Source: Candidatus Rhodoluna planktonica | Lineage (GTDB): Bacteria > Actinomycetota > Actinomycetes > Actinomycetales > Microbacteriaceae | NCBI RefSeq assembly: GCF_001854225.1 | Contig: NZ_CP015208.1 | Span: 620,001-684,000 of the forward strand | Reading direction: 5' to 3' | DNA length: 64,000 nt | Shown: one piece after another, positions 32,212 through 38,110 of the stretch | Numbering within the stretch: the first letter of the stretch is position 1 | Layout of the letters: each line of letters starts with the position of its first letter | Program-made: the position numbers and the translations under genes | Notes under the pieces: model-generated | The model's database searches: none | What the model was told of the DNA's origin: nothing | What the model saw: only the letters and a program-made list of their open reading frames with translations

Positions 32212-33870
32212 ATGGCCAAGTCAGAGGAACAGGGCGCCAAGAAGCGCGGTTTTTTTGCGAACCTGCTGCACCCGCAGGAAAAGACTTCGGGGGAAGTTTC
32301 GAGCAACAAGAAAGAATCTAGAGAAATTTCTACTTCAGCAATCGCGTCAAACCCGAAAGTTAACAAGACTGCAAAGGCTTCAACGAAGACGGAGGCTAAG
32401 CCTGCCATCAAAGAAGCCAAGCCTGCTGCAAAGGCCGTGAAGCAGTCTCAAGAGACTGTCACAAAACCTAAGTCGGCAAAGGCCGCAGCGCCCGCATCGG
32501 CAAAAGCTACCAAAAGCACTGAGGCGAAGGCAGCCAAGGGCACTGAGGCGAAAGTTAAGGCTGCAAAACCCGAATCTAAGGTTGAACCCAAAGTCTCCGA
32601 AAAGGCAAAGGTTGCTAAGGCTTCTGCCAAGCCTGAGGTTTCTGACTTTGTCGAAGAGGCTGTTGTTGAAAGCCCGGCTACAGCTGCAAAGAAAACCACC
32701 GCAAAGGCAAAGCCTGCAAAAGCCGCAAAGCTTCCAAAAGGTTTAGAAGAGGATGAGGAAGAGCTCGACGAAGAAGAGCTCGGCTCGGTAGAAGAAATTG
32801 TCGCCGAGGCAACGTCATCCGTTGATTTAGCGACCGAAGAAGATTCGCTCGAAGACGAAACTGAAGACGAAGAGAAGATAGTCGTCCCTGAGGGTGCGTT
32901 GGTTCTATCCAACCGCGAGGAAGACGATATCCCGGCCATCACCACCACCATTACCGGTGCTACTGCAGACCCCGTCAAGGATTACCTCAAGCAGATCGGT
33001 AAAGTCGCACTGCTCAATGCTGAACTAGAAGTTGAGTTGGCAAAGCGAATCGAGGCCGGTCTTTTTGCTGAGGAGAAGCTGGCAACGTCGAAGAACCTCA
33101 CTCGCGAAATGGAACGCGATTTAAAGTGGGTTGTTAAAGATGGCCAGCGTGCGAAGAGTCACCTCCTAGAGGCGAACCTGCGTTTGGTTGTCTCGTTGGC
33201 TAAGCGCTATACCGGCCGCGGAATGCAATTCCTAGACCTCATCCAAGAGGGAAATCTGGGCCTCATCCGCGCAGTTGAAAAGTTTGACTACACCAAGGGC
33301 TACAAGTTCTCAACGTACGCAACCTGGTGGATTCGTCAGGCGATTACACGTGCCATGGCAGACCAGGCGAGAACGATTCGTATTCCAGTTCACATGGTTG
33401 AGGTAATTAACAAACTTGCTAGAGTTCAGCGCCAGCTTCTCCAAGATCTCGGAAGAGAGCCGACTCCTGAAGAGCTCGCTCGCGAACTAGACATGACTCC
33501 CGAGAAGGTTGTCGAGGTTCAGAAGTACGGAAGAGAACCAATTTCGCTTTCGACTCGGCTTGGTGAAGATGGCGATAGCGAATTTGGCGACCTGATTGAA
33601 GACACTGAAGCGGTTGTTCCGGCTGATGCGGTAGGTTTCACAATGCTTCAGCGAGAATTAGAGCGAATCCTCGACTCCTTGCATCCTCGAGAAGCCGGCG
33701 TAATCAGAAGCCGATTCGGTCTTGGCGATGGTGTTCAGAAAACTCTTGATCAAATTGGTGAAGAATTCGGCGTTACTCGCGAGCGCATTCGACAAATAGA
33801 GTCAAAGACGATGTCTAAATTGCGTCACCCTTCCCGATCACAGATGCTTAGAGACTATCTAGACAACTAA
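32212..33870 (+). CDS. rpoD: principal RNA polymerase sigma factor (SigA/HrdB/RpoD)
   Basis: The housekeeping sigma factor, 552 residues. Residues about 30-170 are a low-complexity Lys/Ala-rich stretch followed by an acidic run (about 180-215), an extension typical of actinobacterial HrdB-type factors. Region 1.2 starts at [11 protein letters not shown]; region 2 has the melting and -10 reading helix [15 protein letters not shown]; region 4.2 ends with [13 protein letters not shown] for the -35. All conserved. AAGGGG is 5 nt before ATG 32212. The MurT-like gene begins at the last base of its stop. Confidence 0.97.
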
Positions 33871-35138
33871 TGCGTTATCTGCCGGCCCTCCTTATTGGGC
33901 GTCTGCTGCGTGCTCTGGTGCGCATGGTCAGGCCGGGTGGCGGTTCGGCACTGCCAGGACTGGTGCTTTCTAAAATTGCCCCCGGTGTTTTGAAGCGGGC
34001 TTTGTCTGCGTTTCCACAAGGTATTTACCTGGTCTCCGGTTCAGCAGGAAAATCGACGACCACCAAAATGTTGGTTGCCATTCTTCGGGAACACGGTTTG
34101 AGTGTATTCACGAATCCATCTACAGCAAACATCAACCAGGGCTTCTACTCGACCTTGATTCAGTTAGGTTCGCTGACCGGCAGGCTTCCGGGTGAAGTCG
34201 CCGTACTCGAGGTTGACGAGGGCCACGCGCTAACCATTGCAAAATTGGTGAAGCCAAAAGGTGTTGTAATCCTGAACGTAACCGAGGATCAGTTAGACCG
34301 ATTCGTCGATCCGAGTTTAGTTAGAGACAAGCTGACTGACCTTGCTCAGGAAGCCACAGATTTTGTCGCTCTCAACGCGAGTGATCAAAACATGCTCATT
34401 TTGGCTGGATCAATTCAACTGCAGCCAACCTGGTTCTCAATTGATCACTCGCTTCGTGTTCTCAGTGAGATTGGTTTAGGGTATGCGCCAACCTATTTAG
34501 ATGCTCTAGATGAGCCAGTTACCGAAAACCTTGTCGTTGGAATGGATGGACGCAAAACGATTGTTTCGTTGGGCTCCGAGCGCGTCGAATTCAACTTGCC
34601 GAACCGTGGCGTTCACTTCGCCATTGATGCGGTTGCCGCACTAACCGGCGCGAAGAAAATTCTGCAATCTAGGTTTGATCCGACAGTGGCCGAAAAGTGT
34701 CTAAACCAACTGCCTCCAGTTTTCGCGAGGGGAGAGCTGCGCGAGGTGAGAGGACAGTTAGTCGAATTCAATCTGGTTCAAAATCCGCCAAGTTTTCAAC
34801 TAAACCTCGACTACTTACCAGATGATGCTGACTGCATTTTTGTCGGTATTGGCCGTGATGTTCACGATCCAAGTTGGTTGTGGACTGTCGATACTGAGAA
34901 GTTGGATCATGTAGCGATGGTCGCAGGTTACAACGCAGCCGAAATTACCCTCAAACTTCGAGCTGGCGGCTCAATCATCGACGAAGTTGTATATGACCTG
35001 GAAGAAGCAATCGAGAAGTATTTTGAGCTACCGGTTCCACCCGTTGGTTACAAGACAGTGATTTTTTCCGCAGATGTTATGCGTCGCATGCGCCGCTACC
35101 TTGGTCTAACAAATCCTGAGGATGTGAGCCGCATTTGA
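33870..35138 (+). CDS. murT: MurT-like Mur ligase (DUF1727), zinc ribbon absent
   Basis: 422 residues with the Mur ligase ATP-binding P-loop SGSAGKSTTTK (Lys61), the NINQGFYSTL and LEVDEGHA central motifs and a C-terminal DUF1727 domain. In MurT of other Gram-positives this protein activates the D-Glu alpha-carboxyl of lipid II for amidation with GatD. The four-cysteine ribbon usually inserted in the central domain is missing; only two scattered cysteines are present. ATG 33870 overlaps the rpoD stop by one base, and gatD overlaps its 3' end by 4 bp. The ligase core looks functional; the acceptor amine may differ. Confidence 0.85.
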   Translation: MRYLPALLIGRLLRALVRMVRPGGGSALPGLVLSKIAPGVLKRALSAFPQGIYLVSGSAGKSTTTKMLVAILREHGLSVFTNPSTANINQGFYSTLIQLGSLTGRLPGEVAVLEVDEGHALTIAKLVKPKGVVILNVTEDQLDRFVDPSLVRDKLTDLAQEATDFVALNASDQNMLILAGSIQLQPTWFSIDHSLRVLSEIGLGYAPTYLDALDEPVTENLVVGMDGRKTIVSLGSERVEFNLPNRGVHFAIDAVAALTGAKKILQSRFDPTVAEKCLNQLPPVFARGELREVRGQLVEFNLVQNPPSFQLNLDYLPDDADCIFVGIGRDVHDPSWLWTVDTEKLDHVAMVAGYNAAEITLKLRAGGSIIDEVVYDLEEAIEKYFELPVPPVGYKTVIFSADVMRRMRRYLGLTNPEDVSRI

Positions 35139-35716
35139 AAAAGCTAGTCAGGTTTCTTCCCAGCCACTTGAATTTGAACGGCGATGCAGCCAACTGTGAC
35201 GCGATAAGTTTTTACCTTAACAAATCGGGGATAGGTTCAACTGTCGTCGATTACCGCCTCGGCCAAACCTGGAGTCCTGACGCTGACTTTATTGTGGTCG
35301 GACACGGATCAATGGCCGCTTGGAATTCACTAACCGATCTCAAGCCAGTGATTGCAAAATTCTTGCTGGCAGCTCGTGATAACGGGGCGTTAGTGCTTCT
35401 GGTAAGCAGCGCAATCAGTGAACTGGCTGATTCGCTTGGACTGCATGTGCAGTTTGCCGAAATTGAAAGGCAATCGAAGTTCACACACACCGAGTTTGAA
35501 AACCAGAAAATCGTTGGCTATCTAAACAGCGATCGCAACCTGCCGCTCTTTGAGCGTCAAAATGGCTTTTGGCTAACGTCACTCCATGGGCCCCTGGTCG
35601 CAAAAAATCCTCAACTTTTGGAAACTTGGTTTTCAACTGTTGCCGTTTTGGACGATCAGCTTCAGGATGCTGTGAACAGTGCCAGAGACTTGGCTATAGC
35701 TTTAGCGGATGAGTAA
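35135..35716 (+). CDS. GatD-like amidotransferase subunit lacking the catalytic cysteine
   Basis: 193 residues, shorter than usual GatD (about 240). The N-terminal LPSHLNLNGDAANCDAISF corresponds to the family's LNxYGDxxN start, and SLHGPLVAKNP retains the C-terminal catalytic-histidine block (His151). At the nucleophile elbow, where GatD has VxCGGYQ, this protein reads LVSSAIS: the cysteine is replaced by Ser91. It should not hydrolyse glutamine. TTG 35135 overlaps the MurT-like stop by 4 bp, so the two are translationally coupled and probably form one complex. Confidence 0.78.
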   Translation: MKKLVRFLPSHLNLNGDAANCDAISFYLNKSGIGSTVVDYRLGQTWSPDADFIVVGHGSMAAWNSLTDLKPVIAKFLLAARDNGALVLLVSSAISELADSLGLHVQFAEIERQSKFTHTEFENQKIVGYLNSDRNLPLFERQNGFWLTSLHGPLVAKNPQLLETWFSTVAVLDDQLQDAVNSARDLAIALADE

Positions 35717-36022: not shown

Positions 36023-36028
36023 TTGAAG

Positions 36029-38110
36029 GTGCCAAACTCCGATTACTCAGCCCGCCATCTTTCCGTTTTAGAAGGTCTTGAAGCTGTTCGCAAGCGTCCT
36101 GGTATGTACATCGGTTCCACCGACTCTCGCGGACTGATGCACTGCCTCTGGGAAATCATCGACAACTCAGTCGATGAGGCTTTGGCTGGCCACGGTAGCG
36201 AGATTAGCGTAGTTCTGCACTCGGATGGATCCGTCGAGGTGCGCGATTTGGCCCGTGGTATTCCCGTTGATGTCGAGCCCAAAACAGGTCTAACCGGTGT
36301 TGAGGTTGTTTTCACGAAATTGCACGCCGGCGGAAAGTTTGGCTCTGGTTCTTACGCTGCATCTGGTGGCCTGCACGGCGTGGGCGCATCCGTCGTAAAT
36401 GCGCTTTCAGAACGACTAGATGTTCAAGTCGATCGCGATGGCAAAACCTACTCGATGTCTTTCCGTCGTGGCGAGCCAGGAGTCTTTGATGATTCAAAAG
36501 GCATCGCACCTACGAATGCTTTTGAGCCTTTTGAGAATGAATCGAAGCTGATCGTCTTAGGCAAGGCAGCCAAGGGTGTCTCTGGCACCAGAGTGCGCTA
36601 CTGGGCTGATCCGCAAATTTTTATCAAAGACGCCAATTTTGTCTTGAATGAATTACTCGAGCGAGCGCGTCAAACAGCGTTTCTCGTACCCGGACTCGCA
36701 ATCAAGATTTCTGACAACCGCGGGGAGTCGGCCGAAGAGTACAGTTTCAAATTTGATGGCGGAATCAGCGAGTTCGCTGACTATCTAGCTCCGGATGCTG
36801 CCATCACTCCGACCTGGCGGGTTACCGGCAGCGGCACGTTTACGGAAACGGTTCCGGTTTTGGACGAATCAGGCAACATGGTCTCGCGCGAGGTTGACCG
36901 GGTCTGTGAAGTCGATCTCGCCATTCGGTGGGGTGCGGGTTACGACACAACCGTAAAGAGCTTTGTAAACATCATTGCAACACCAAAAGGCGGAACCCAT
37001 CTTCTTGGTTTCGAGCAAAGCTTGTTGAAGGTGATCAGGTCAGAAGTGGAGGCCAATTCACGAAAGCTGAAGGCTGGTAGTGAAAAAGTCGAAAAGGATG
37101 ACGCCACCGCTGGCCTCACTGCTGTAATCACCGTCCGCCTCGCCGAGCCGCAATTCGAGGGACAGACAAAAGAAATTCTCGGAACACCAGCAGTGAAAAA
37201 CATCGTGGCTAGCGTGTTGGCCAAATCTCTCACTGAGAAGTTCCAGAGCTCTAAGCGTGAAGATAAGCAGGCAACTGCCGTCCTGCTCGAAAAAGTAGTT
37301 TCCGAGATGAAGGGCCGAATTTCGGCGCGAGCACAGAAAGAAACGCAGCGCCGAAAAAATGCACTAGAGACCAGCTCGCTACCTACCAAACTTGTGGATT
37401 GTCGAACCCAAGATACTGAGTCAAGTGAGCTTTTCATCGTCGAGGGTGATTCTGCGCTGGGCACTGCAAAACTGGCTCGAAATTCTGAATTCCAGGCTCT
37501 GCTCCCAATTCGGGGCAAGATTCTAAACGTACAAAAAGCATCTGTTGCCGACATGCTATCCAACGCTGAATGCGCGTCCATCATCCAAGTCATCGGTGCC
37601 GGTTCGGGGCGCACCTTTGATCTGTCTTTAGCTCGCTACGGCAAAGTCATCCTGATGTCGGATGCCGATGTGGATGGCGCACACATTAGAACTCTGCTGC
37701 TGACCCTGTTCTTCAAATACATGAGGCCCCTGGTTGAAGCGGGACGAGTATTTGCCGCGGTTCCACCGCTACATCGGGTTGAAGTAGTTAATTCCGGGTC
37801 AAAGGCTAACGAGGTGATTTACACCTACAGCCAGACAGAACTGGACGCACTTCTTCTTCGCTTAGGCAAGTCAGGAAAGCGCTATAAGGAACCGATTCAG
37901 CGATATAAAGGCCTTGGCGAGATGGACGCAGACCAGTTAGCTGAGACCACAATGGATGTCGGACAGCGAATGCTGCGCAGAGTGCGTGTCGAGGATGCAG
38001 CGGCCGCTGAGACTACCTTTGAGTTGCTGATGGGTAATGACGTAGCACCTAGAAAAGACTTCATCGTCGAGTCTGCAGACTCTTTCGAGCGCGACCGAAT
38101 AGACGCGTAA
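36029..38110 (+). CDS. parE: DNA topoisomerase IV subunit B
   Basis: ATPase subunit of the type IIA topoisomerase that decatenates chromosomes. 693 residues. GHKL ATP site (DNSVDEALAGH, GGLHGVGASVVNALS), Toprim domain EGDSALGTAKLAR and DADVDGAHIRTL, and the C-terminal RYKGLGEMDADQL. The EGDSALG form, rather than GyrB's EGDSAGG, points to ParE. GTG 36029 is taken because of the leaderless -10 spacing; TTG 36023 would add two residues. parC is convergent 70 bp away. Confidence 0.94.
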   Translation: MPNSDYSARHLSVLEGLEAVRKRPGMYIGSTDSRGLMHCLWEIIDNSVDEALAGHGSEISVVLHSDGSVEVRDLARGIPVDVEPKTGLTGVEVVFTKLHAGGKFGSGSYAASGGLHGVGASVVNALSERLDVQVDRDGKTYSMSFRRGEPGVFDDSKGIAPTNAFEPFENESKLIVLGKAAKGVSGTRVRYWADPQIFIKDANFVLNELLERARQTAFLVPGLAIKISDNRGESAEEYSFKFDGGISEFADYLAPDAAITPTWRVTGSGTFTETVPVLDESGNMVSREVDRVCEVDLAIRWGAGYDTTVKSFVNIIATPKGGTHLLGFEQSLLKVIRSEVEANSRKLKAGSEKVEKDDATAGLTAVITVRLAEPQFEGQTKEILGTPAVKNIVASVLAKSLTEKFQSSKREDKQATAVLLEKVVSEMKGRISARAQKETQRRKNALETSSLPTKLVDCRTQDTESSELFIVEGDSALGTAKLARNSEFQALLPIRGKILNVQKASVADMLSNAECASIIQVIGAGSGRTFDLSLARYGKVILMSDADVDGAHIRTLLLTLFFKYMRPLVEAGRVFAAVPPLHRVEVVNSGSKANEVIYTYSQTELDALLLRLGKSGKRYKEPIQRYKGLGEMDADQLAETTMDVGQRMLRRVRVEDAAAAETTFELLMGNDVAPRKDFIVESADSFERDRIDA

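Follow-up and report, generated by a model that had tools for sequence, protein, structure and literature searches.

What does a MurT/GatD-like pair do when its GatD-like partner lacks the glutaminase nucleophile? The question is raised by two genes in a stretch of 64,000 nucleotides from Candidatus Rhodoluna planktonica (contig NZ_CP015208.1, positions 620,001 to 684,000; here called the window), whose genome has 1.42 Mb on a single contig and is 99.9% complete. MurT' (33870..35138, + strand) is a MurT-like Mur ligase of 422 aa, while GatD' (35135..35716, + strand) is a protein of 193 aa with a TTG start and a GatD-like class I amidotransferase fold. Canonical MurT uses ammonia. Type-B peptidoglycan, typical of Microbacteriaceae, is cross-linked via D-Glu and not via position 3, and we know of no enzyme that has been assigned to placing the bridge on D-Glu. 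A literature search covering few subscription papers and no preprints found no assignment of a type-B bridge ligase, and the name MurT is absent from the main text of PMC10757982, which deals with Microbacterium diamino acids. Judged from sequence, MurT'/GatD' is probably the bridge ligase of type-B peptidoglycan, in which MurT' would be the ATP-dependent ligase for the D-Glu alpha-carboxyl.

The closest relative with a measured wall is Rhodoluna lacicola, of the same genus, which carries the pair with a MurT' 58% identical to that of the window. Its wall is of type B2beta (B10), with a D-Ala-D-Dab bridge (Dab, diaminobutyric acid), according to the available text of PMC4156110.

Identity of the MurT'/GatD' pair

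The initial annotation described a MurT/GatD-like pair overlapping by 4 bp, and both the open reading frames (ORFs) and the profile matches agree with it. The MurT' ORF alone matches Mur_ligase_M with 37.3 bits and MurT_C with 23.1 bits, the latter slightly below the cut-off of 25, and both proteins miss their NCBIfam equivalog cut-offs (71.7 vs 800 bits for MurT'; 15 vs 450 bits, E 0.017, for GatD'). GatD' alone gave no Pfam match and phmmer against solved structures returned no GatD, and on its own sequence it is only weakly recognisable. Profiles made from each protein and its relatives match S. pneumoniae MurT 6fqb_A (3.6e-48) and S. aureus GatD 6gs2_A (1.4e-53), respectively. The GatD' profile has 30 rows, one of which (L163) bears the Cys, and the structure alignment A3 omits L106, L116 (whose range crossed a stop), L131, L135, L145, L162 and L163. 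The AlphaFold2 models are confident, with mean predicted local distance difference test values of 90.0 for MurT' and 95.9 for GatD'. By these matches the pair is a MurT/GatD relative, consisting of a protein with Mur_ligase_M and MurT_C domains and a GatD-type partner, and it would represent a variant form of MurT/GatD for which a new function is proposed.

A genome search gave one MurT_C match (26 bits) in the window genome. Canonical MurT reaches 60-94 bits where it is present in the family (L035-L043), and a second intact pair in this genome would therefore hardly have been overlooked; the initial annotation had named such a pair as an observation that would speak against its proposal. The window MurT' used as query has three matches in its own genome, one being the gene itself and the other two probably other Mur ligases. 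Three GATase_3 matches are also present in the genome, none of them the GatD' of the pair.

Loss of the glutaminase centre and retention of the ligase centre

Ser91 of GatD' (codon 35405..35407, + strand) aligns with the nucleophile Cys, a replacement already noticed in the initial annotation and reproduced by alignments with family and order-mate loci. His151 of the HGP motif (35585..35587, + strand) and Lys61 of the MurT' P-loop GSAGKSTTT (34050..34052, + strand) are both retained, again as first described. The same annotation called for an alignment across the family, in which the Cys is missing in 61/64 family loci (30 best and 34 chosen), being retained only in L035-L037, and in 76 of the 77 named loci, where the lone Cys row is a Saccharibacteria record. 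The named loci are the best 80 of one scan of public genomes, of which L102, L159 and L166 have no GatD just downstream and so fall outside the GatD count; the two sets overlap by at least 8 loci. Since the same loss is found in both sets, Ser91 is not a chance loss. The GatD histidine is also gone in 28/77 named loci.

The canonical state is found elsewhere in the order. Of 20 loci selected in seven further families (L197-L216), 18 have the GatD Cys, unlike the window pair, and the remaining two (L200 and L202) are unscored, another amidotransferase having been picked. A quick tree built from 66 MurT rows, rooted at the midpoint only, has two changes of the Cys state. One change involves a single clade that includes the window (SH-like approximate likelihood ratio test, SH-aLRT, 100) and has Cys-bearing order-mates as neighbours; the other lies in a group with zinc-ribbon forms.

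The following residues are the same in all 26 aligned MurT' rows: K61, E114, D116, N136, D140, Q141, R144, N169, D172, R287, N312, D333 and S335. D333 belongs to the D-x-S-W loop and would correspond to the triad Asp of S. aureus, D349. In the window this loop is DVHDPSW (residues 330-336; 34857..34877, + strand), where canonical MurT has ADGRD[MV]SW; the remodelled loop is shorter than that of order-mates and its geometry is uncertain. A degenerate or dying pair was ruled out by the retention of the pair with invariant ligase residues in these 26 rows. GatD' diverges fast, the window protein being 29-34% identical to its five nearest rows, vs 53-55% for MurT' of the same five.

The S. aureus enzyme indicates what the loss may mean. 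GatD C94S has its activity abolished, according to the available part of PMC6113224. GatD C94G loses glutamine-dependent activity, while MurT combined with it can still use ammonia to amidate lipid II (pH 8.5); in that case, too, MurT seems to depend crucially on its interaction with GatD (PMC3266927, in the text available). This ammonia-dependent activity, together with the retained ligase centre of MurT', speaks for the main rival explanation, in which the pair still amidates D-Glu with free ammonia in a non-cross-linked part of the wall. Acid hydrolysis in wall typing would hide such amidation. This explanation is nevertheless unlikely, since it leaves unexplained three observations described below, which are the agreement of the MurT' tree with the bridge residue, the replacement of the pair in the same slot by an unrelated amide ligase, and the neighbouring racemases, EctB and penicillin-binding protein; amidation would also block the carboxyl that bears the bridge.

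Zinc ribbon of MurT'

The window MurT' is devoid of the zinc-ribbon cysteines. The initial annotation was right on their absence and took it as an argument for a changed function, and this second part did not hold: because the ribbon is also missing in 16/18 scored Cys-bearing order-mates, its loss is no sign of altered function, and it was discarded as evidence. The ribbon is described as limited to a subset of bacteria and some Actinobacteria in the available text of PMC6113224 and PMC6085368. The converse case is seen in L038-L043, where three or all four of the zinc cysteines are retained and the GatD Cys is missing.

Related loci with the ribbon were also observed. L044, L045 and L220:5604-8514 have a zinc-ribbon MurT with a GatD missing both the Cys and the HGP His. 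The 3.3 kb surrounding L044 and L045 contain no match to sigA or parE, and neither do the 5.0-5.5 kb examined around the order-mate loci L197-L216. At the upstream end of the L220 locus, genome G049 has a weak CofE-like match (34%; approximately L220:7698-8393). The MurT' profile A3 at E 1e-10 has matches in 80/198 genomes of the order, and murTgatD is called universal in Actinobacteria in the part of PMC6085368 available.

MurT' phylogeny and the bridge residue

The wall diamino acid has long been used to separate genera of Microbacteriaceae, and the loci were labelled by it at genus level, which is coarse. Dab labels were presumed for Rathayibacter, Plantibacter, Leifsonia and Pseudoclavibacter, and ornithine or lysine (Orn/Lys) labels for Curtobacterium, Okibacterium, Mycetocola and Microcella. 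From the available text of published descriptions, the Dab label was given to Agromyces (PMC5217419), Cryobacterium and Glaciihabitans (PMC7033078), Herbiconiux (PMC10011130), Subtercola (PMC5945732) and Clavibacter (PMC9603630, PMC5358740), and the Orn/Lys label to Agreia and Frondihabitans (PMC5945732) and to Frigoribacterium and Salinibacterium (PMC7033078). Microbacterium has D-Orn, L-Lys or Dab depending on the species (PMC10757982, in part), and the accessible portion of PMC6604993, where the wall type of Curtobacterium was sought, has nothing on its diamino acid.

MurT' and the neighbouring ParE were compared on the same 70 loci, rows without a ParE above 480 aa being excluded. When rows from metagenome-assembled genomes (MAGs) are left unlabelled (47 rows, 18 genera), the MurT' tree has 2 label changes, as few as which were obtained in 0/1000 genus shuffles (mean 7.0), and the ParE tree has 7, with 691/1000 shuffles doing as well. 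Literature labels only (26 rows, 10 genera) give 2 changes for MurT' (26/1000) and 4 for ParE (869/1000). Of the two MurT' changes, one is due to Salinibacterium soli, labelled by its genus, and dropping it leaves a single change.

Agreia separates the bridge from the other possible correlates. On the ParE tree it groups with Herbiconiux and Subtercola (SH-aLRT 97), and among the named loci parE is inverted in the six rows of these three genera and nowhere else. Agreia MurT' falls in the clade of Orn/Lys genera (SH-aLRT 94). The MurT' tree rejects a group of Agreia, Herbiconiux and Subtercola (p-value of the approximately unbiased test, p-AU, 6.7e-32) and the quick ParE tree rejects a group of Agreia, Frondihabitans, Frigoribacterium and Curtobacterium (p-AU 0.0078), both groups having been named after the trees were seen. 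The Agreia wall has L-DAB connected to D-Orn, type B2gamma, in the available text of PMC5945732, and in our own reading of this type L-Dab would be position 3 and D-Orn the bridge. As Agreia MurT' groups with Orn/Lys genera and its ParE with Dab genera, MurT' seems to follow the bridge and not position 3 or descent.

The triad loop varies with the same residue. Dab genera have DVRDPSY or GTPDPSW, Orn genera GTPD[IV]SW, and Lys genera SSYDPSW, HSRDPSW or GTPDISW; Salinibacterium has both GTPDISW and GTPDPSW. These observations suggest that the MurT' variant tracks the bridge residue instead of organism phylogeny, a correspondence that is weaker when genus-named MAG rows are counted.

The sigA-parE slot and its CofE-like replacement

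In the window the pair sits between sigA, the principal sigma factor gene (32212..33870, + strand), and a gene for a parE/gyrB-type topoisomerase subunit (36023..38110, + strand), which flank an exchangeable slot on its left and right, respectively. Of the 80 named loci, 78 gave a sigA and 72 a parE. Against the window MurT', 299 genomes of the family divide into 222 with strong matches (E <= ~1e-30), 21 intermediate and 56 with no match, and 23 genomes checked among these 56 have no match to MurT_C (PF08353). Strong matches to a CofE-like protein are found in 46 genomes, all within the 56 MurT'-less ones and in 0/243 of the others; two weak matches (34 and 37% identity; G049 and G134) were not counted. 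Both MurT'-type and CofE-like genomes are contained in 13/78 genera, and the exchange in the slot is thus frequent.

The CofE-like gene adjoins sigA, upstream of parE, in 17/20 MurT'-less genomes for which 13-kb stretches were used, with EctB in between in L183. Examples at the place of MurT'/GatD' are L173:1902-2591 and L183:3295-4002. An ATP-grasp protein (PF14397 where tested) is also present in 14 of those 17 loci and is convergent in 13. CofE, an amide ligase, couples an amino acid to a carboxyl group. Its family, PF01996, is matched by the G091 slot protein with 52.5 bits, and the L183 protein, at 31.4 bits, is far under the CofE equivalog cut-off of 180.65, so the slot CofE-like protein is taken as a paralogue.

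The sigA-parE interval would on this pattern be an exchangeable wall-chemotype cassette, holding either the Cys-less MurT'/GatD' or the CofE-like and ATP-grasp proteins, with optional racemase and diaminobutyrate transaminase, that installs the bridge on the D-Glu alpha-carboxyl and sets its amino acid. We hold this broader proposal to have a somewhat better than even chance of being correct.

Several records show unusual slot contents. Micrococcales bacterium 73-13 (L092:10001-13052) has MurT'/GatD' plus the ATP-grasp protein of the other module. In some Rhodoluna-like genomes (L047, L048 and L133) the pair in this slot belongs to clade B, which is not so in the window or in R. lacicola and suggests a replacement within the genus. 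A record titled Planococcus sp. APC 4015 (L154) carries a Microbacterium-like slot and is probably mislabelled or contaminated. Genome G013 matches MurT' at 2.0e-51.

Neighbouring genes and diamino acid supply

In some genomes, other genes of the slot are related to the wall. In the slots of MurT'-less genomes, where chosen proteins were annotated, ten loci have a member of the Alr family. EctB, diaminobutyrate-2-oxoglutarate transaminase, is encoded at L183:1945-3267 between sigA and the CofE-like gene (601.8 bits vs a cut-off of 552.2) and would link the slot directly to Dab. A class III aminotransferase is present in the slot of L190, and the lipid II flippase MurJ lies inside the sigA-parE slot of L177 (2329-3918). 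In MurT' loci the gene order of L129 is MurT'-GatD'-EctB-Alr (EctB 584.4 bits), and an Alr paralogue is found in the slot of 24/80 named MurT' loci, all of clade B. At E 1e-25, two or more Alr are present in 9/9 chosen clade B genomes, with one of them located at the slot in six. Genome G111 has a second Cys-less pair elsewhere, and directly after it comes a gene for a class A penicillin-binding protein (L221:3882-8119). A ligase, a racemase, Dab synthesis, a flippase and a transpeptidase, the kinds of function seen among these genes, would all be needed for building a bridge.

Two genes were tried as general partners of the pair and rejected. EctB is above the cut-off in just 6/20 chosen genomes, and in neither the window genome nor R. 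lacicola; an extra Alr is not general since clade A genomes have one (7/7 chosen, E 1e-25).

An indirect role, in which GatD' and MurT' bind the precursor or regulate a true bridge ligase encoded elsewhere, would agree with EctB and Alr not being in every slot and with the fast change of GatD' relative to MurT', as expected of a scaffold. It is set against the invariance of the listed MurT' ligase residues and against the replacing gene, which is of an amide-ligase family, and we regard such a role as quite improbable.

Proposed function

The initial annotation had proposed that the pair ligates the bridge to D-Glu. Apart from the zinc-ribbon argument, this idea is favoured by the loss of the Cys, the type-B wall of R. 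lacicola, the single MurT_C match of the genome search, the gene tree, the slot exchange and the neighbouring genes. As suggested by its invariant Mur residues, MurT' would use ATP to form an acyl phosphate on the D-Glu alpha-carboxyl of the precursor. In place of ammonia, a diamino acid (in this lineage D-Dab) would then attack the acyl phosphate through its amino group, a step indicated by the gene tree and the neighbours. GatD' would no longer cleave glutamine and would be an obligatory non-catalytic subunit shaping the C-terminal domain and the active site of MurT'. Finally, a penicillin-binding protein would attach the remaining amino group to the D-Ala of the neighbouring stem. In Clavibacter, D-Dab connects successive stems, bound to D-Glu in the first and to D-Ala in the second, as the available text of PMC9603630 describes.

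A number of observations weigh against assigning the pair to the bridge. Contrary to its genus label, Salinibacterium soli is not in the Orn/Lys clade, and for 8 of the 18 genera the label is a presumed one. When MAG rows are labelled by genus name (52 rows), MurT' has 4 changes (8/1000) and ParE 8 (730/1000), and literature labels only with MAG rows (31 rows) give 4 for MurT' (308/1000, no better than shuffles) and 5 for ParE (888/1000). Two MAGs bring in the added changes: L137, named as Salinibacterium, falls in clade A, and L153, named as Cryobacterium, falls in the clade of Orn/Lys genera; on the ParE tree L153 lies beside Salinibacterium sedimenticola. One Cryobacterium is reported with ornithine (PMC12113805), and one Agromyces is given as D-Glu-L-Dab in the available text of PMC5217419. 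The clade A slots of named loci showed none of the partner genes sought. The window genome has one Alr and no EctB over the cut-off that could account for a D-Dab supply; R. lacicola likewise has one Alr and no EctB over the cut-off, and yet has D-Dab in its wall. Finally, 289/299 genomes have a MurT-type or CofE-like gene and 10 have neither (six of g45, two of g47, G017 and G057). ATP-grasp (ATPgrasp_ST) was considered as the answer for these ten and rejected, being in only 1/10.

The weakening of the label test by MAG rows is also what would be expected if the correlation were historical, the module having travelled with other, unseen wall genes and the pair acting on another substrate. Some slots also hold wall genes such as Alr and MurJ, and linkage could hence mislead. 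Such a history is very unlikely, as clade A slots, which are without the partner genes sought, still separate from the Orn/Lys genera, and the catalytic-loop motif itself differs by bridge residue.

If bridge attachment by MurT'/GatD' and by its CofE-like counterpart is correct, there would be two concrete gene modules for the unassigned cross-linking enzymes of type-B peptidoglycan. Wall type could be predicted from one locus, and wall-type variation within genera such as Microbacterium could be explained. A glutamine amidotransferase would have become an amino-acid ligase by discarding its glutaminase, with GatD turned into a non-catalytic ligase subunit.

Comparison with known systems

The MurT/GatD lipid II isoglutaminyl synthases of S. 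aureus (6gs2) and S. pneumoniae (6fqb) share with MurT'/GatD' the two-gene operon, the ATP loop, the Mur ligase middle and MurT C-terminal domains, the partner with a class I amidotransferase fold and the invariant Asp of the D-x-S-W loop. Unlike them, MurT'/GatD' is without the nucleophile Cys, frequently without the His and without the zinc ribbon, and is placed between sigA and parE; its loop ADGRD[MV]SW is changed to DVRDPSY, GTPD[PIV]SW or SSYDPSW. The zinc-ribbon-less canonical MurT/GatD of order-mates (L197-L216) are the nearest Cys-bearing relatives seen outside the family.

CofE, the F420-0:gamma-glutamyl ligase (PF01996), gives its family to the slot protein that replaces the pair, an amide-ligase family unrelated to MurT. 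Micrococcus reportedly adds glycine to the D-Glu alpha-carboxyl in an ATP-dependent reaction, in work said to be that of Katz et al. in 1967, and to our knowledge its gene is not assigned. This reaction resembles the one proposed here for MurT'/GatD' in acting on the same carboxyl of a substrate that is lipid-linked, and in consuming ATP and an unbound amino acid.

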